37,078 bases of DNA from Candidatus Bathyarchaeia archaeon (GTDB taxonomy: Archaea > Thermoproteota > Bathyarchaeia > Bathyarchaeales > Bathycorpusculaceae): contig JASEET010000010.1 in NCBI GenBank assembly GCA_030019335.1, forward strand, positions 1 through 37,078, given 5' to 3'. Under the pieces are notes generated by a model. It did not search any database. It saw nothing but the letters and a program-made list of their open reading frames with translations, and had not been told where the DNA came from. This document shows positions 9,113 to 27,908 of this stretch, one piece after another. Position 1 is the first letter of the stretch. Each line of letters opens with the position of its first letter. The translations under genes were made by a program, and so were the position numbers.

Positions 9113-10435
9113 CTAAAACAACCCAACAGTTTTGATTCCGCTGGCTTCTTTATCAACAACTAATCTTCCGTTTTTTACAACCTTGTCAACTAAATTCACG
9201 CCGAAACGATAACCAAGAAACATGTGATTCGGCACGTCCAAAACGATAACGTCAGCCTTTTTGCCAATTTCCAAGCTGCCAACCTCGCTTGTTCTACCTA
9301 TGGCATGGGCAGAATTAATCGTAGCCGCGGTTATGGCTTCAGCAGGCGTCAACCTCATAAAATGACAGGCAAAAGCTATAACCAACTGTTGATTCTCAAC
9401 CCAACAGCTCGGATTAAAATCAGTACCCAAAGCCACAGGAACCCCAAAATCAATCATTTTTCTAGCATCCGCATACCGCCCAGTCATCAAGCTGAAGGCT
9501 GCTGCTGGAAGCAAAACAGCAACCACGCCTTTATCAGCCATGGCTTTAATGCCCTCATCAGAAGCAAAAAGCAAATGCTCAGCAGAAACAGCCCTAACAT
9601 CAGCCGCAAGCTCTGCACCACCAAACATACTCATTTCATCAGCATGAACCTTAGGCTTTAAGCCACGATTCTTACCAGCAACCAAGACACGCCTAGTCTG
9701 CTCCAAATTGAAAACACCTTTCTCACAGAAAACATCACAAAACTCTGCAAGCCCTTTCTCAGCCACTCGCGGAATCATCTCCTCAATAATTAAGTTAACA
9801 TACTCTTGCGGATTATTTTTGTATTCAAGCGGAATGGCATGAGCACCCAAAAAAGTTGGAACAACATCAACAGCATGTAATTGATTCAAACGCTTCATAA
9901 CTCCTAAAATCTTCAACTCATCCTTCAAGGTTAAACCATAACCGCTTTTAGCCTCCACAGTTGTTGTACCATGCTCCAACATAACATCCAAAGTTTTAAA
10001 CCCAAATTCCACAAGCCTTTCAACACCAGCCCTCCGTGTTTCCCTAACAGTCCTCAGGATTCCGCCGCCAGCACCAAGAATCGCCATGTAAGAGACTCCC
10101 TCCACCCTCATCTGAAACTCATCCTCCCGCGAACCAGCAAAAACAAGATGAGTATGCGGGTCAACAAAGCCGGGCATAACAATTTTTCCGCTCGCACTTA
10201 TCACGTTTTCAGCACTGAAACTCTTCCTGATTTCAGGTGTTTTTCCAACAGCAACTATTCTGCCATCTTTGACTGCCAATCCGCCCTTACGGATTATCCC
10301 AAGATTCTGTATCTGCGTGCCGGTGCGTGGCTTTTCACTGCCGCCCTTTAGCGTTACAAGCTCGTTAGCGTTCACTATAAGCATGTCTACTTTTTCTTTT
10401 CTCGTTCGCTTACCACGCCTTTTAGCTTTAGTCAT
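9113..10435 (-). CDS. hutI: Imidazolonepropionase
   Basis: HutI hydrolyses 4-imidazolone-5-propionate to N-formimino-L-glutamate. This amidohydrolase-fold protein shows the metal ligands DPHTHLVFAGSREDEF, AHAIPLEYK, KVHADEMS and GTDFNPSCW in the right order. The ATG at 10435 gives an unusual basic N-terminus (MTKAKRRGKRTRKEKVD) before MLIVNANELVTL; an internal ATG at 10384 would give a more typical 423-residue enzyme. The start lies two bases after the stop of the metallo-beta-lactamase gene, so coupling is expected from 10435. Confidence 0.95.
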   Translation of the reverse strand: MTKAKRRGKRTRKEKVDMLIVNANELVTLKGGSEKPRTGTQIQNLGIIRKGGLAVKDGRIVAVGKTPEIRKSFSAENVISASGKIVMPGFVDPHTHLVFAGSREDEFQMRVEGVSYMAILGAGGGILRTVRETRRAGVERLVEFGFKTLDVMLEHGTTTVEAKSGYGLTLKDELKILGVMKRLNQLHAVDVVPTFLGAHAIPLEYKNNPQEYVNLIIEEMIPRVAEKGLAEFCDVFCEKGVFNLEQTRRVLVAGKNRGLKPKVHADEMSMFGGAELAADVRAVSAEHLLFASDEGIKAMADKGVVAVLLPAAAFSLMTGRYADARKMIDFGVPVALGTDFNPSCWVENQQLVIAFACHFMRLTPAEAITAATINSAHAIGRTSEVGSLEIGKKADVIVLDVPNHMFLGYRFGVNLVDKVVKNGRLVVDKEASGIKTVGLF

Positions 10436-10437
10436 TT

Positions 10438-11082
10438 CTAAACCACTTGATACTCTTCGCCCTTCCGCAACACCACAACTTTAACGTTTGAGGTTGCTTC
10501 CACCCTCTTTTTGAACTCCTCCGGGTTTGTGTCCCAACGATGCATGGGTATTACAATTTTAGGGTTAATTGCCAATACAGCTTCAGCAGCCTCAGGGTTA
10601 TCCATGGTGTATGTGCCTCCACTCGGAAGCAAAGCCACATCTACACGTCCAAGCTTTCGCATTTCGGGAATAAAGTCGGTGTCTCCAGCATGATAGACGG
10701 TTTTTCCTTCAGCCGTTACCAAGTAGCCGACTCCAAGTCCCTTTGGATGAAACGGATTTCCAGGAGACCTAAAGCGTTTATAATTGTATGCTTCGACAGC
10801 CTTAACTCTTATGTTACCAATGGTTGCTTCTTCCCTAGGTTTAAGCGTCTTAACGCTTCCACCAATTTTTGAAGTGCAATCTTCAGGAGCAATTATCACG
10901 GTATCGGCTTTACGAACTTTTTTGATTTTAGATGCATCGCAATGGTCAAAATGCGAATGTGTCACCAGCATCAAGTCTGCCTTTTCAGAATATTCACCTT
11001 CATAAGGGTCTATGTAAATGGTTTTCCCTTCCGCTCCAATCTGGAAACTGGCGTGACCCAGCCATTTTATTGAGAGATTCAT
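10438..11082 (-). CDS. UPF0173-type metallo-beta-lactamase-fold hydrolase
   Basis: This 214-residue protein has the compact metallo-beta-lactamase fold of the UPF0173/YtkL group: IKWLGHASFQI at the start, the metal motif THSHFDHCD, later YHAGDTDF, and IPMHRWDTNP near the end. Zinc or another dication should bind the HxHxDH site. It overlaps ftcD by four bases and hutI starts two bases after it ends, so it is fully embedded in the histidine-degradation operon. A role in that pathway, for instance on a formimino or lactam intermediate, is inference only. Confidence 0.88.
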   Translation of the reverse strand: MNLSIKWLGHASFQIGAEGKTIYIDPYEGEYSEKADLMLVTHSHFDHCDASKIKKVRKADTVIIAPEDCTSKIGGSVKTLKPREEATIGNIRVKAVEAYNYKRFRSPGNPFHPKGLGVGYLVTAEGKTVYHAGDTDFIPEMRKLGRVDVALLPSGGTYTMDNPEAAEAVLAINPKIVIPMHRWDTNPEEFKKRVEATSNVKVVVLRKGEEYQVV

Positions 11083-20525: not shown

Positions 20526-20637
20526 CAGTTATTGCTATTCGTTTTCACAAATGTTTATTATTTTGAAAAGCATCATTGATAAAAAGCGTAAGTGAATCTG
20601 TTTCCTTATGCTGTTTGCATATTGGAAGACATGTGAC

Positions 20638-22419
20638 ATGCCTATTCGTCAACCAATTGTATGCGTTCTTGGTCACGTTGATACGGGTAAGACTTTGCTT
20701 TTGGATAAAATACGTAAGACAAGTGTTCAGGCTCGTGAAGCTGGAGGGATTACGCAACATATTGGTGCAAGCTTTTTTCCTATTGACACACTTAAGCAGT
20801 TGTGTGGTTCTTTGCTTTCTATGGTTAAGGGTGAAATTGAGATTCCAGGCTTGCTTATTGTTGACACACCCGGGCATGAAGCATTCACGAACTTGCGTAA
20901 GAGAGGCGGAAGCGTAGCTGACATAGCCATTCTCGTTATTGACGTTTTGCGGGGTTTTGAAGACCAAACCTACGAGTGCATAGAGATTTTGAAAGCTCGC
21001 AAAACACCTTTTCTTGTGGCTGCAAACAAGATAGACCGCATACCAGGCTGGAATTCCTATTCGGATACGCCATTTTTGAAGGCCTATAAGTTGCAGGACC
21101 CATATGTTAAACAGGATTTGGACGCAAGAATCTACGACATTATAGGTGTGTTTTCACGTTTGAGGTTTAGGGCAGACCGATTCGACCACATAAAGGATTT
21201 TACAAAGACTGTGGCGGTTGTGCCTACAAGTGCGAAGAGTGGTGAAGGCTTAACTGAACTTCTCATGGTTCTCGTGGGCTTAACACAACAATTTTTGAAG
21301 AAGCGCTTGCAGACGACTGAGGGACCAGCAAAAGGCACAGTTTTAGAAGTTAAAGAAGAGCCGGGATTGGGTTTAACGATTAATACTATAATTTATGATG
21401 GAGTTTTGCAGAAAGATGATTTGATTGTTATCGGCGGCAAGGAAAAGCCCGTTACAACGCGGATACGGGCAATTTTGGTTCCAAAACCCCTAGATGAAAT
21501 TAGAGACCCAAGGGACAAGTTTTCTTCTGTGCATTCAGTTTCTGCAGCGGCTGGAATCAAGATTGTTGCACCTGATTTGGAGGGTGCTTTGGCTGGAGCA
21601 CCTTTATATGGTGTTCCTCAGGGGGAAGAGCCGGAAAAGTATTTGCGGCTTGTTTCTGAGGAAATTGAAAGGATTAGGATATTGACGGATGTTGATGGGG
21701 TTGTTTTGAAGGCTGACACGTTAGGCTCATTAGAGGCTATTGCTGAAAGCCTAAAACGAAACGATGTGCTGATTCGGTTGGCGGATGTTGGAGATGTTTC
21801 AAAAAGGGATGTTACAGAGGCTGCGGTTGTGAAGGAACATAAGCCTCTCTATGGCGTGGTTTTAGCCTTTAATGTTAAGGTTTTGCCAGACGCTGAAGAG
21901 GAAGCCACCAACAGGAATGTTCAGATTTTCCGTGAAAACATAATCTACCGCCTAGTAGACGAGTATTTATTGTGGCTTAAAACTCAGCGGGAGGCAGAAC
22001 TTGAGCAAGAGTTTGAGAAACTTGTTATGCCCGGGAAAATTCGCATTATGGAAGGATATGTTTTCCGAAGAGCAAAGCCAGCGATAGTGGGCGTAGAAAT
22101 CTTAGCTGGAAGGATAAAGCCGAAATGCATGCTTGTTAGAAGCGAAGATGGCAAAGAAGTAGGTGAAATACAGCAGATTCAAGAGAAAGGAAAAGCGTTG
22201 CCGGAGGCTGGACAGGGGATGCAGGTGGCAATATCTATAGACAAGCCGATGGTTGGGAGACACATATTTGAAAAGGATGTGTTATATGTGAAGGTGCCGG
22301 AACGTCATGCGAAGGTGTTGCTGACAACGTTTATAGATAGATTGACAGTGAAAGAGCAAGAGGCATTAAACGACTACGTAAACCTAATGAGAAAGAAGAT
22401 GCCATTCTGGGCGGCATGA
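20638..22419 (+). CDS. infB: Translation initiation factor aIF5B
   Basis: This ribosomal-subunit-joining GTPase is homologous to eIF5B/IF2. GTPase motifs are G1 GHVDTGKT, G3 DTPGHEAF and G4 AANKIDRI. Domains II-IV follow, with VKADTLGSLEAI and a C-terminal domain ending YVNLMRKKMPFWAA. The frame is open from ATG 20608, but ATG 20638 (MPIRQPIVCVLGH) is preferred. GGAAG lies upstream with normal spacing, and archaeal homologues start just before the G domain, giving 593 residues. Confidence 0.97.
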   Translation: MPIRQPIVCVLGHVDTGKTLLLDKIRKTSVQAREAGGITQHIGASFFPIDTLKQLCGSLLSMVKGEIEIPGLLIVDTPGHEAFTNLRKRGGSVADIAILVIDVLRGFEDQTYECIEILKARKTPFLVAANKIDRIPGWNSYSDTPFLKAYKLQDPYVKQDLDARIYDIIGVFSRLRFRADRFDHIKDFTKTVAVVPTSAKSGEGLTELLMVLVGLTQQFLKKRLQTTEGPAKGTVLEVKEEPGLGLTINTIIYDGVLQKDDLIVIGGKEKPVTTRIRAILVPKPLDEIRDPRDKFSSVHSVSAAAGIKIVAPDLEGALAGAPLYGVPQGEEPEKYLRLVSEEIERIRILTDVDGVVLKADTLGSLEAIAESLKRNDVLIRLADVGDVSKRDVTEAAVVKEHKPLYGVVLAFNVKVLPDAEEEATNRNVQIFRENIIYRLVDEYLLWLKTQREAELEQEFEKLVMPGKIRIMEGYVFRRAKPAIVGVEILAGRIKPKCMLVRSEDGKEVGEIQQIQEKGKALPEAGQGMQVAISIDKPMVGRHIFEKDVLYVKVPERHAKVLLTTFIDRLTVKEQEALNDYVNLMRKKMPFWAA

Positions 22420-22885: not shown

Positions 22886-22952
22886 TGTGTGCTACAAGGG
22901 AAACGGTATGAATATGTTTTATTATAATGTTAATATCAAATAAGTTGTGGTG

Positions 22953-23384
22953 ATGAGTGAAGTGACTGAGGAGGGAATATTGCAGTTTGAAACTGGGTCT
23001 CTTTCGAAAGAGGAAGTTGAGGCTATCTTAGATTCGCTTCCGGTTGACATATCATTTGTTGATAAAGAAGACCGTGTAAAATACTTTAACAAGGCTGAGA
23101 AAAGAATTTTTGTTCGGACAAAGGCTGTTATTGGAAGAAAAGTGCAGTTATGCCATCCGCAGAAAAGCATTCATGTTGTAAATAATATTCTCGAAGCCTT
23201 CAAAACGGGCAAGAAAGATGTGGCAGAGTTTTGGATTCAAATGAATAATCGGCTAATCCACATCTGATATTTCGCAGTAAGAGACAAGAATGGAAAGTAT
23301 TTAGGAACTGTGGAAGTAACGCAAGACCTAACTGACATCAAGAAAATTGAGGGTGAAAAAAGACTTCTAGAGTGGAAGGACTAG
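22953..23384 (+). pseudogene. PAS-domain protein interrupted by an in-frame TGA
   Basis: The frame from ATG 22953 encodes a PAS sensor domain: VEAILDSLPVDISFVDKEDR, VKYFNKAEKRIFVRTKAVIG, RKVQLCHPQKSIHVV and FWIQMNNRLIHI. It stops at TGA 23265-23267 (codon 105). The same frame then runs on as YFAVRDKNGKYLGTVEVTQD, LTDIKKIEGEKRLLEW to TAG 23384, exactly as in DUF438-associated PAS proteins, where an Arg stands at the stop position (CGA to TGA). The result is a truncated PAS protein unless the stop is read through or is a sequence error. It resembles heme/small-molecule-sensing PAS proteins of methanogens; the ligand is unknown. Confidence 0.75.
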
Positions 23385-23495
23385 CCTCCATTTTCTCAAA
23401 AGCAAACAATAACATATAGCGAGGTTTAGTCGTCTATCTGCTTAGATGATCAGCTCAAGATTTTGAATGGGTTAGGAGCTTTTGCGTTATTTTAT

Positions 23496-24608
23496 TCATG
23501 CAAGTAGGTGGATGTTTCCTATTCTTGTGTTTTTTAGGTGTTTTTCCGCTGTTTTTTGGCAGTCCATTGCTTGTTTTCTGCTTGTTGTTGGTAAATCGTT
23601 CATGACATAGCATGGATAAAACGCTAATAGCGTATATGGAATATTCGGGTCTATTTCGCTTATGAATTTGGCAATGTTCTCAATCTCTTCAGCATCTACA
23701 TAGCCCGGAACAAGTAGCGTGCTGGCGGAAAGCACTGGCAGTTCCGGTCGCTGTTTGTAGAATTTTTCTCCTATCATTTTGAAGTTGGCCAGTGTTGGCT
23801 TGTTTGAAACTCCGCATAATGCCATGTTTAATTCTTCACTCCAAGTTTTTAGGTCGAATTTTATGTTGCCGCCGCTTTCTAAAGCGTATTGTGCTGCTTT
23901 TTCAGCCAATTTTCGGTTCATATAGCCGTTGGTTTCCCAGCAAATCCGAAGGATACGTTTTTCAGCTTTGGCTTTTTCTAGGGCTATGCGGCTCACTTCA
24001 AGTGAATGCGGCATCTGGGGTGAAGGGTCGCCGCCGAAATAGCAGATGCAAGAGACATGTTTATCCACTTTGCCTGCTAAGGCATCGGCACTCATGACAG
24101 GCTTGTGCTTAACAGCCAAGTTGCGGTAATGCCAGTTCTGACAAAACAAACAATCATAGCTGCAGGCTCCGTAAAAAACCGCTAAATTAGAATAGCCATA
24201 CTCGGCTTCTGGCTTGTAAGCATATTTTGGATAGCCCTTTCCAGTGCAGCCCGGACAAAACCACCAGCTAACGCAGTTGGTTGGCAAACCATCATAATAC
24301 CATTCCAAAATACCTTTCTCAGCAGTACCGCCGAAACGAACCAAACGCCCACCAACATTCCAAACAAGCCCACAAAAACCACTATTACCAGCACCAATCC
24401 TACAATTATTGGCACAAACCCCACAAGACAATCCACCAGCGTCTTTAGGCGGCTCAGGAGGCAGACCAAAAACGGCACGGCTCTTCGCATGCACACGCCT
24501 CGTAATCTCAAGGGCTTGTTCAGGCTTCTCCCTTATGCACCTTAAACAAGCACCCAAACTGTCCGAAATAGTCGCGGCTTTTTCGCCGCAAATTAAACAT
24601 TTTCCCAT
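23496..24608 (-). CDS. Radical SAM protein, AmrS/pyruvate-formate-lyase-activase-like, with extra zinc site
   Basis: This is a radical SAM enzyme. Numbered from ATG 24608, it has an N-terminal zinc-ribbon-like part (C4LIC7 ... C21LRC24), a CGVCANNCRI...GFCGL cysteine region as in AmmeMemoRadiSam AmrS proteins, CVSWWFCPGC (112-121), and the cluster motif C149SYDC153LFC156. Next come FGGDPSPQ, WETNGYMN and FDLKTW. ATG 24608 is preferred over GTG 24623 because GTGGGG then serves as ribosome site. It is the third gene after two ubiquitin-like genes on the same strand, which suggests a role with them. The substrate is unknown. Confidence 0.85.
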   Translation of the reverse strand: MGKCLICGEKAATISDSLGACLRCIREKPEQALEITRRVHAKSRAVFGLPPEPPKDAGGLSCGVCANNCRIGAGNSGFCGLVWNVGGRLVRFGGTAEKGILEWYYDGLPTNCVSWWFCPGCTGKGYPKYAYKPEAEYGYSNLAVFYGACSYDCLFCQNWHYRNLAVKHKPVMSADALAGKVDKHVSCICYFGGDPSPQMPHSLEVSRIALEKAKAEKRILRICWETNGYMNRKLAEKAAQYALESGGNIKFDLKTWSEELNMALCGVSNKPTLANFKMIGEKFYKQRPELPVLSASTLLVPGYVDAEEIENIAKFISEIDPNIPYTLLAFYPCYVMNDLPTTSRKQAMDCQKTAEKHLKNTRIGNIHLLA

Positions 24609-24694
24609 AAACGTGAACCCCACAAAAACCTAACAAGACCTTAGAATATAACTCTTCTAAACGCTAAGTTTTCTGACATACAAGAGGCAAGTGG

Positions 24695-24988
24695 CTAGCC
24701 GCCACCAACTGGTGGTAGTATGGCTAAAACGTCACTGTCCATAAGTTTTGTTTTTAACCCGTCAAGGGTAGCTATGCTTCTACCGTTCACTAGCAGTGTC
24801 AAATAGCTTTGAATCTCGCCGGTTTTTCTATCAAAAACATACTCGACGAAATCCTTCCCGTGAAGCTCAGCTAACTGCTTCAACACGTTTTCAACTGTGA
24901 CTTCTTCTCCGTCTGGAAACGTAAGAGATTCTGCTTTTTTCCCAACCAATTCACGCAACGCCGCAAAGAAACGCACAGATACCTTCAA
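24695..24988 (-). CDS. MoaD/SAMP-like ubiquitin-fold protein
   Basis: This 97-residue beta-grasp protein begins KVSVRFFAALRELVGKKAES and ends LAILPPVGGG, the MoaD-type tail that is adenylated and thiocarboxylated by an E1-like enzyme. It could act in molybdopterin/tungstopterin synthesis, tRNA thiolation or protein conjugation. The TTG start at 24988 has GGGAG nine bases upstream. It lies 22 bases after the other ubiquitin-like gene and 86 bases before the radical SAM gene. Confidence 0.88.
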   Translation of the reverse strand: MKVSVRFFAALRELVGKKAESLTFPDGEEVTVENVLKQLAELHGKDFVEYVFDRKTGEIQSYLTLLVNGRSIATLDGLKTKLMDSDVLAILPPVGGG

Positions 24989-25010
24989 CAGTCAAACGCT
25001 CCCAACAAGT

Positions 25011-25283
25011 TTAGCCTCCAGTATCAGCATACCCAACTAAAACTTCACAATCAGATTTTAAGGTTTCATCCCTTATGCTCAGAAGTGCCCTGCCCCCAGA
25101 TATGAAAACGAAGGTGTCCAGCATCTTTTCATCCAACTTTCCATAACGCCTCAGCCTTTCCTTAAGTATGCTCAAAATATTTTCATACTTGGCATCGTCA
25201 GAAACATGAATAGTTTCCACTTTCCCAGATGAGCCGAAGCACTTGGCTATTTCGTGGCTTAGGTACCGTATCTTAACTTCCAT
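25011..25283 (-). CDS. Second ubiquitin-fold (MoaD/Urm1-like) protein
   Basis: This 90-residue protein reads EVKIRYLSHEIAKCFGSSGK...ILSILKERL...FVFISGGRALLSI...LVGYADTGG. It has the beta-grasp pattern and a terminal Gly-Gly suited to activation by an E1-like protein. It differs clearly from its neighbour, so this is not a recent duplication. ATG 25283 starts it, and it faces the E1-like gene across a 111-base promoter region. Confidence 0.75.
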   Translation of the reverse strand: MEVKIRYLSHEIAKCFGSSGKVETIHVSDDAKYENILSILKERLRRYGKLDEKMLDTFVFISGGRALLSIRDETLKSDCEVLVGYADTGG

Positions 25284-25339
25284 GGCTTATGGCCACAGCT
25301 CGCCTTCAAACTTTCCTATAAGTTAAGCTTAGTTTTAAT

Positions 25340-25347
25340 TTTATAAA
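25340..25347 (+). promoter_or_regulatory. TATA box of the E1-like gene
   Basis: TTTATAAA lies about 48-55 bases before ATG 25395. The leader contains ATAGGAGG, a strong ribosome site at 25380-25387. Confidence 0.45.
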
Positions 25348-25394
25348 AGCTATTATGCAATAAATCCTAAACTAAGGCTATAGGAGGCTTCTAG

Positions 25395-26132
25395 ATGAGT
25401 TTGTCACCGTCAGAGCTTGAGCGATATGAGAGGCAGATGCTGATTTCTGGCTGGGGAGTAGAGGGACAGAAAAAGCTGAAATCTGCAAAAGTCGCTGTAG
25501 TGGGCATCGGCGGATTGGGATGTTCAGCAGCAATTTATCTCGCAGCCGCCGGCATAGGAAAGATAATTCTTGTAGACAAGGGAAAATTTAAGCTAAACAA
25601 TCTAAACCGACAGATTCTCTGCTGGCAAAGAGATGTTGGAAAGTTTAAGGCAGAAGTAGCCAAAGAAAAGCTTGAGGCGTTAAATCCCGAAATAGAAGTA
25701 GAGGCGGTTGTTGCAGAAATCACCAAAGACAACGCCCATGATGTGATAGGAGATGTTGATGTGGTTTTGGATGGACAAGATAATTGGAAAACAAGATTCA
25801 TAATAAACGAGTACTGCGTCAGACATAGCATACCATTCATTCATGCCGGCGTTTCGGCACTGCACGGACAAATGACCACGATAGTGCCGGGTAAAGGACC
25901 TTGCTTTCGTTGCATATTTCCGAAAGACCCGCCAGAAGTTGAAAAGATTCTAGTGTTAGGCGCCACCCCCGCCTTACTTGCCTCATTACAGGTGATGGAG
26001 ACCGTTAAACTTGTTACCGGGATAGGTAAGCCGCTTGTTGGACGAATGCTGTTTGCAAACGGAGAGGAAATGGTGTTCGAAACTGTAGAAGTTAAGAGAA
26101 ACGTTGAATGTCCTGTTTGCAGCAATCTGTAG
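25395..26132 (+). CDS. E1-like adenylyltransferase (ThiF/MoeB/UbaA family)
   Basis: This enzyme adenylates the C-terminal glycine of a ubiquitin-like protein. It is 245 residues with the nucleotide loop GIGGLG (37-42), the Arg finger in NNLNRQ (68-73), DGQDNWKTR, and zinc pairs C170-x2-C173 and C239-x2-C242. In MoeB the catalytic Cys lies in SCAEGGVLG; here the same stretch reads VEKILVLGATPALLASLQ, so that cysteine is absent. Other archaeal members may share this. It is divergent from two ubiquitin-like genes, the likely substrates. Confidence 0.9.
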   Translation: MSLSPSELERYERQMLISGWGVEGQKKLKSAKVAVVGIGGLGCSAAIYLAAAGIGKIILVDKGKFKLNNLNRQILCWQRDVGKFKAEVAKEKLEALNPEIEVEAVVAEITKDNAHDVIGDVDVVLDGQDNWKTRFIINEYCVRHSIPFIHAGVSALHGQMTTIVPGKGPCFRCIFPKDPPEVEKILVLGATPALLASLQVMETVKLVTGIGKPLVGRMLFANGEEMVFETVEVKRNVECPVCSNL

Positions 26133-26267: not shown

Positions 26268-27908
26268 ATGGCTTACTTAACACAAACACCGTCGGGACAA
26301 CCAGTCCTAATTCTTAAAGAAGGCACAACAAGAAGCCGCGGAAGTGAAGCTCAAAGAAACAACATAATGGCTGCCCGCATAATAGGCGAGGTGCTAAAGA
26401 CAACGCTTGGACCACGTGGCATGGACAAAATGCTCATAGACAGCCTAGGAGACATAACAATAACAAACGACGGAGCAGCAATCCTAGACGAAATGGAAGT
26501 TGAGCATCCAGCAGGTAAAATGATGGTTGAAGTTGCAAAGACACAGGATGATATGGTGGGTGACGGAACAACAACAGCCGTAGTTTTAGCAGGCGAACTA
26601 CTAAAGAAAGCGGAAGAACTTCTAGACCAGAACATCCACCCAACAATAATTGTGAGTGGTTATCGCAAAGCAGTGCAAAAAGCGATGGAAACCATAAACA
26701 AAATTGCAATACCAGTAGACATTGAAGACCGTGCAACACTCAGAAAAGTTGCGTTAACATCAATGGCAAGCAAAGCAGTGGGCCCAGCAAAAGAACACCT
26801 GGCAGAAATAGCGATAGACGCTGTAAAACAAATCGTTGAAAAACGTGGAGACAGGAGAATCGCAGACATAGATAACATCCAAATAATAAAGAAGGAAGGA
26901 AAAAGCCTCTTCGAATCACAACTCATCAGAGGCGTAATAATAGACAAGGAAGCAGTTCACCCAGGGATGCCCAAAAAATTAGAAAATGCGAAAATAGCCT
27001 TGCTCGACTGCCCACTAGAAATTGAAAAGACGGAAATCAGCGCCGAAATAAGAATACGAGATCCAACTCAAATGAAGGCTTTCTTAGACCAAGAAACCCG
27101 AATGCTGAAAGAGATGGTTGAAAAAATCAAGGCTGCAGGGGCTAACGTTGTTTTCTGCCAGAAGGGCATAGACGACATGGCACAGCACTTCCTGGCAAAA
27201 GAAGGAATATTGGCGGCCAGAAGAGTGAAAGAATCAGACATGGAAAAGCTTGCGAGGGCGACTGGCGGAAGAATAACCACGGATTTAGATGATTTAACGC
27301 CGCAGGATTTGGGGGTAGCTGGCATAGTTGAGGAACGCAAAATCGGCGAAGACAAAATGATTTTTGTTGAAAAATGCAAAGACCCGCGCTCAGTTGCGGT
27401 GCTTATCCGAGCTGGACTTGAAAGAATGGTTGATGAAGCGGAAAGAGCCATGAACGATGCTCTATCCGTAGTTTCAGACGTGATAGAAGACAACAAAATC
27501 GTTGCAGGCGGCGGCGCAGTGGAAGTTGAAGTAGCCAAGGAACTGCGGAGATATGCCACAAAGGTGGGTGGAAGAGAACAACTCGCTATAGAAGCTTTCG
27601 CCGATGCAGTTGAGATAGTGCCAAAAACCCTAGCTGAAAATGCAGGACTGGAATCCATAGACATAATTGTGGGATTAAGAGCTGCTCATGAAAAAACAGA
27701 CGGCAAATACATGGGAGTAAACATTTTCACAGGAAAAACCGAAAACATGCATGACAACGGAGTTGTCGAACCATTGGTGGTCAAGGAACAAGCAGTGAAG
27801 TCAGCCGCAGAATCCGCATCGATGATACTGCGCATAGACGACGTAATAGCATCCACAAAACCAAAAGAGGAGAAACCACCAAGCGGACCTGAAAGCGAAG
27901 AATACTAA
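26268..27908 (+). CDS. Thermosome subunit (group II chaperonin)
   Basis: This ATP-driven protein-folding chamber subunit has 546 residues. Family motifs are [48 protein letters not shown] (ATPase), [11 protein letters not shown] and VVAGGGAVE-type [14 protein letters not shown]. It ends in a short charged tail (PESEEY) where some subunits have GGM repeats. Only one subunit is encoded here; others may lie elsewhere. A clear TATA and ribosome site precede ATG 26268. Minus-strand frames inside it are shadows. Confidence 0.97.

Follow-up and report, generated by a model that had tools for sequence, protein, structure and literature searches.

Two ubiquitin-like proteins, a short E1-like enzyme and an unnamed radical SAM enzyme encoded side by side in a genome of the Bathyarchaeia

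The genes for a radical SAM enzyme, two ubiquitin-like proteins (here UBL1 and UBL2) and a divergently oriented E1-like enzyme lie side by side in a genome of the Bathyarchaeia. The explanation we prefer, at what we judge to be about an even chance, is that they represent two adjacent modules: an ordinary system for sulfur-carrier activation, made up of the short E1 and its ubiquitin-like proteins, and a radical SAM enzyme of anaerobes loosely tied to tungsten/molybdenum-pterin metabolism. UBL1 and the radical SAM enzyme can each do without the other. The window, that is the whole stretch of DNA analyzed, is one complete contig (C1) of 37,078 bases from a genome of 1.64 Mb in 73 contigs, rated 100% complete. 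The family holding this genome is labelled f1 (family labels are those of the genome tool itself) and is called the window's family below; the genomes used for comparison are assembled metagenomes.

The radical SAM gene (23496..24623, minus strand) is accompanied upstream on the same strand by the gene for UBL1 (24695..24988, TTG start), a MoaD/SAMP1-type ubiquitin-like sulfur carrier with the tail PPVGGG, and, 22 bases from it, by the gene for UBL2 (25011..25283), a beta-grasp ubiquitin-like protein with the tail DTGG. A divergent intergenic stretch of 111 bases (25284..25394) with an AT-rich, TATA-box-like element, TTTTATAAAA, which is also present in the related genome G132, separates UBL2 from the short E1-like adenylyltransferase of the ThiF/MoeB/UbaA superfamily (25395..26132, plus strand). 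The thermosome subunit gene (26268..27908, plus strand) is a conserved flank of the UBL1 gene, and a gene for a GTPase resembling translation initiation factor IF5B (20608..22419, plus strand) is the conserved flank on the far side of the radical SAM gene. All four central genes had been recognized in the initial annotation and their positions hold; because all four are conserved at the protein level in relatives, the four-gene observation is not due to chance. Within the window a PAS-domain gene at 22947-23400 (plus strand) is ended by an in-frame TGA (23265-23267), with PAS-like residues continuing past the stop in frame; its products in close relatives are longer (146-147 aa), and the gene has possibly been disrupted recently.

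The radical SAM protein carries the CX3CX2C motif as CSYDCLFC and matches Pfam Radical_SAM with 57 bits. Its relatives begin at an ATG internal to the annotated reading frame, and 24608 is the likely true start. Sixteen cysteines are invariant across 59 relatives from Asgard archaea, Bathyarchaeota, Methanomethylicota and crenarchaeal families: four in an N-terminal zinc-ribbon-like pair (CX2C..CX2C), four in a CX2CX3CX9C motif, three in the SAM-cluster motif and five others. Such a set would be expected to hold one SAM cluster, a zinc site and one or two more metal sites. The predicted structure (pLDDT 97.5) has as its closest solved fold the pyruvate formate-lyase activating enzyme (target-normalised TM 0.75-0.80). 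The fold is similar, but the window enzyme has about 120 extra N-terminal residues with ten of the invariant cysteines. By model score it does not qualify as a glycyl-radical enzyme activase, lying far below every activase cut-off.

The best NCBIfam relative is AmrS of the AmmeMemoRadiSam system (TIGR04337), which belongs to the same radical SAM branch and shares the N-terminal four-cysteine motif CX2CX3CX9C. That the enzyme is itself an AmrS, as the initial annotation had allowed for, is nevertheless highly improbable: proteins of the window's type reach 48-57 bits against a cut-off of 220 (the window's own 48), while the true AmrS encoded elsewhere in the same genome (G000:C44) scores 323 bits, the two form separate clades with support 100/99, and the window enzyme has extra zinc-ribbon-like cysteines at its N-terminus in place of the C-terminal motif of AmrS. 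A literature search delivered no paper on this family in connection with AMMECR1/MEMO1 or in Bathyarchaeota. The protein also matched no MoaA family, in line with the initial view that the locus is not a simple MoaA/MoaD locus; the sole Mob_synth_C match of the genome lies on contig C33. The tungsten oxidoreductase maturase TIGR04317, to which we take tk1064 of T. kodakarensis to belong, is absent from the protein's 13 family matches at E<=1. Identity with MoaA and with this maturase was rejected accordingly.

UBL1 passes the curated models TIGR01687 (moaD_arch; 71.2 against a cut-off of 49.5) and NF041918 (SAMP1; 66.1 against 60). Of 22 non-redundant loci in the window's family, 19 encode it on the strand of the radical SAM gene and no more than 1 kb away. 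The linkage to both ubiquitin-like proteins suggested by the initial annotation thus holds for UBL1, whereas UBL2 and the E1 gene are found near the radical SAM gene only in close relatives. Of the two findings that would have overturned the initial annotation, a lack of linkage to ubiquitin-like genes in relatives and clear orthology to AmrS, neither was made. The pairing exists, yet either partner is dispensable: 25 family genomes keep UBL1 and have no radical SAM enzyme, and in G102 and G110 UBL1 is encoded beside the thermosome gene and away from the enzyme. Several of the enzyme-less genomes still hold UBL1 between the thermosome and IF5B genes. In G104 (L313:6511-7605) a deletion has left about 28 codons from the start of the radical SAM gene, joined in frame to the ornithine-cyclodeaminase-like gene that comes next, and has spared the UBL1 gene upstream. 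Many archaea in turn encode the enzyme with no UBL1 adjacent to it. An obligate pair of enzyme and carrier, as the initial annotation had implied, was rejected on these grounds. In three other families of the Bathyarchaeota (L323, L324, L326), UBL1-type carriers were seen by eye near two long genes resembling glycine-cleavage P-protein subunits, and two of these loci also hold a MIP18-like gene of about 100 aa.

These losses bear on two other explanations. In one, the enzyme takes sulfur from thiocarboxylated UBL1 or acts on the UBL1 tail; the close, co-directional genes in the window's family, the invariant extra cysteines, which could carry an auxiliary cluster, and the resemblance in fold to an activase known to act on a glycine would all suit such a role. 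Direct action of this kind is possible, finds no specific support in these data and is in our estimate distinctly unlikely, given the 25 family genomes that keep UBL1 alone and the many archaea in which the enzyme has no adjacent UBL1. In the other, only the neighbourhood is shared: the enzyme would serve some unrelated housekeeping purpose in anaerobic archaea and would stand beside UBL1 by inheritance of the thermosome-IF5B gene order. The persistence of UBL1 in that block where the enzyme is lost or, as in G104, reduced to a remnant, and its position with the thermosome elsewhere in G102 and G110, count in favour of this explanation. It is a serious alternative of lesser probability than the two-module explanation.

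More than 500 relatives of the radical SAM enzyme were found in the genome collection, ranging from Asgard archaea to crenarchaea. Roughly one genome in two of the order has an orthologue (48-92% identity), and among 300 genomes sampled from the phylum Thermoproteota 148 have the enzyme. Outside the window's family a ubiquitin-like or MoaE gene lies within 1 kb of the enzyme in 13 of 100 non-redundant loci, against fewer than one expected by chance (estimated for a density of about four of these genes in 1.6 Mb); the remaining 87 loci have neither, which agrees with a merely inherited neighbourhood. Three arrangements account for these 13 loci: in Bathyarchaeota an Urm1-like gene that converges on the enzyme gene, a MoaE gene directly upstream of the enzyme in all six Methanomethylicota loci read, and, in one Thermoprotei genome, a cluster of two ubiquitin-like genes, MoaE and a further ubiquitin-like gene convergent with the enzyme. 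In the tree the MoaE-linked clade of the Methanomethylicota is the probable sister group of the enzyme of the window's family (support 93/91). In G457 (L354:3483-8018) a window-type radical SAM gene, an aldehyde oxidoreductase (AOR) gene, a ubiquitin-like gene (tail PPAGGG) and a tungsten oxidoreductase radical SAM maturase gene follow one another in one direction, the last being a true member of TIGR04317 (452.6 bits), and in G172 an AOR gene lies 680 bases from the enzyme. Neighbours of four kinds, MoaD-like, MoaE, AOR and Urm1-like genes, thus occur beside the enzyme in one lineage or another more often than expected by chance, which argues against an unrelated housekeeping role. In Asgard archaea, by contrast, the commonest neighbour is a RimI-like GNAT acetyltransferase gene directly preceding the enzyme (L133, L136, L145-L149, L151), a point in favour of that role. 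The pair of GNAT and radical SAM genes was also seen in some Bathyarchaeota, after a LarA-like gene.

The distribution of the enzyme points in the same direction as the adjacencies. In comparisons that ignore phylogeny and kinship, MoaE is present in 136 of 148 Thermoproteota genomes with the enzyme and in 78 of 152 without it, and AOR in 139 of 148 and 80 of 152, respectively. Counted by genus, with numbers derived by hand, MoaE occurs in 67 of 72 genera with the enzyme against 34 of 55 without it, and AOR in 70 of 72 against 30 of 55. Genomes with the enzyme are thus near-nested in those bearing AOR beyond chance, which counts against an unrelated role; an anaerobic lifestyle alone could also produce this co-occurrence. 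Exceptions run both ways, with nine genomes that have the enzyme and no AOR, 12 that have it and no MoaE, and about 80 that have AOR or MoaE and no enzyme, and neither molybdopterin synthesis nor AOR therefore requires the enzyme. A role in core molybdopterin synthesis was rejected on the 78 MoaE-bearing genomes without the enzyme and the 12 enzyme-bearing genomes without MoaE. The possible tie to a tungsten cofactor that the initial annotation had raised is nonetheless supported by the adjacency to AOR or MoaE in several lineages and by the co-occurrence. A bolder version appears unlikely to us: the family would be an unrecognized archaeal component of the chemistry of tungsten/molybdenum pterins or of thiocarboxylates, in a clade that reaches from Asgard archaea to crenarchaea, and would draw sulfur from a ubiquitin-like carrier or a tungstoenzyme or activate its glycine tail.

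UBL2 belongs to no family in Pfam or NCBIfam. Its AlphaFold model (pLDDT 86.6) has its best match in the PDB in SAMP1 (3po0, TM 0.68), with MoaD, Urm1 and ubiquitin scoring lower; this resemblance to SAMP1 speaks against the idea that UBL2 is a detached C-terminal domain of long E1s. UBL1 and UBL2, described as unrelated in the initial annotation, are distant relatives as judged by profile comparison (UBL2 profile against the UBL1-group profile, probability 78%, E 1.8e-5). The terminal GG is present in eight of ten UBL2 orthologues; that of G132 ends in Ser-Gly, and one has no GG-ended reading in the aligned stretch. A profile search found UBL2 in 10 of 257 genomes of the class, and because of this rarity any functional reading of it draws on seven to ten genomes.

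The window E1 matches PF00899 (ThiF) with 254 bits and carries the nucleotide motif GIGGLG and the CX2C...CX2C pair CFRC and CPVC. It lies below the equivalog cut-offs of NF047750 (UbaA; 230 against 450) and TIGR02355 (MoeB; 185 against 376), and its clade is without the TBP-like C-terminal extension carried by the usual E1s of the family. In the E1 tree the short enzymes from seven genomes with UBL2 group as a single clade (support 98/89). UBL2 is divergent from the short E1 in the window, in G132 and in G011, a member of another family in which the pair has no radical SAM gene between or beside it, and in G143 and G199 the two genes are within about 1 kb of each other. A four-gene unit was rejected, since UBL2 and E1 occur where the radical SAM gene is missing, and the radical SAM gene occurs where they are missing.

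The crossover-loop cysteine is the thioester site of E1s of the UbaA/Uba4 type. It is present in 12 of 12 long E1s and in none of ten short E1s compared, which fits an adenylating enzyme and would argue against thioester formation by the short E1. The genome, rated complete, has a single ThiF-family match, namely this E1, and encodes four carriers or more: UBL1, UBL2, a MoaD next to an AOR gene on C33 and, on C55, an Urm1-like protein. Since it is the only E1 found, it presumably serves all four, on the assumption that the assembly is complete. The Urm1-like protein of C55 (L231:6306-6593) has the tail HAG, not HGG, and an arCOG07188-like gene (10356-10736) is located about 4 kb away. MoaE and MoaA are encoded elsewhere in the genome. 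The absence of an aldehyde oxidoreductase, pointed out in the initial annotation, is true of the window; the genome has three matches, one of them accompanied by its own MoaD on another contig.

In the two-module explanation the short E1 would adenylate the C-terminal glycine of UBL2, of UBL1 and of the two other ubiquitin-like proteins, and the adenylates would be converted to thiocarboxylates which, to judge from the protein families, could donate sulfur to molybdopterin/tungstopterin synthase and to tRNA thiolation. The E1-type activation of sulfur carriers assumed in the initial annotation is supported at this level. UBL2 would be the dedicated partner of this short-E1 clade, and UBL1 a putative MoaD/SAMP1-type carrier that in the window's family is co-directional with a radical SAM enzyme of an apparently O2-sensitive type. 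The latter would reductively cleave SAM and modify a substrate, most plausibly in the tungsten/molybdenum-pterin metabolism of anaerobes or in related sulfur metabolism, the area to which linkage and co-occurrence point. The locus is of interest for a radical SAM family of anaerobic archaea that is highly conserved, has no name and offers a testable tungsten/molybdenum lead, and for the ubiquitin-like family UBL2, of which no library has a model. With a sole E1 that does not have the usual catalytic cysteine, the choice between conjugation of ubiquitin-like proteins and sulfur carriage alone becomes directly testable in such archaea.

Comparable arrangements have been described in other archaea. 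A single E1 of T. kodakarensis, TK2117, is presumed to act on three ubiquitin-like proteins that are redundant with one another, and the operons comprise tk1064 (radical SAM), tk1065 (ubiquitin-like) and tk1066 (AOR) on the one hand and tk2117 (E1) and tk2118 (ubiquitin-like) on the other (PMC11323500). The window resembles this organism in having a ubiquitin-like gene beside a radical SAM gene, another paired with an E1 gene and a single E1 for several ubiquitin-like proteins; it differs in the absence of an AOR gene next door, in the divergent orientation of the E1 gene to the carriers, in the second carrier family UBL2 and in a radical SAM protein that does not match TIGR04317. As in the SAMP1/UbaA system of Haloferax, UBL1 passes the SAMP1 model and the E1 belongs to the superfamily of UbaA, but the E1 stays well under the UbaA cut-off and has no crossover-loop cysteine. 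In the Sulfolobales a neighbourhood of thermosome, S17e, arCOG07188 and Urm1-like genes is known (PMC2948915). Unlike there, the ubiquitin-like protein on the thermosome side of the window is the MoaD-like UBL1, the E1 gene lies in between and the Urm1-like protein is encoded on another contig; as in the Sulfolobales, a ubiquitin-like gene is divergent from a thermosome subunit gene.
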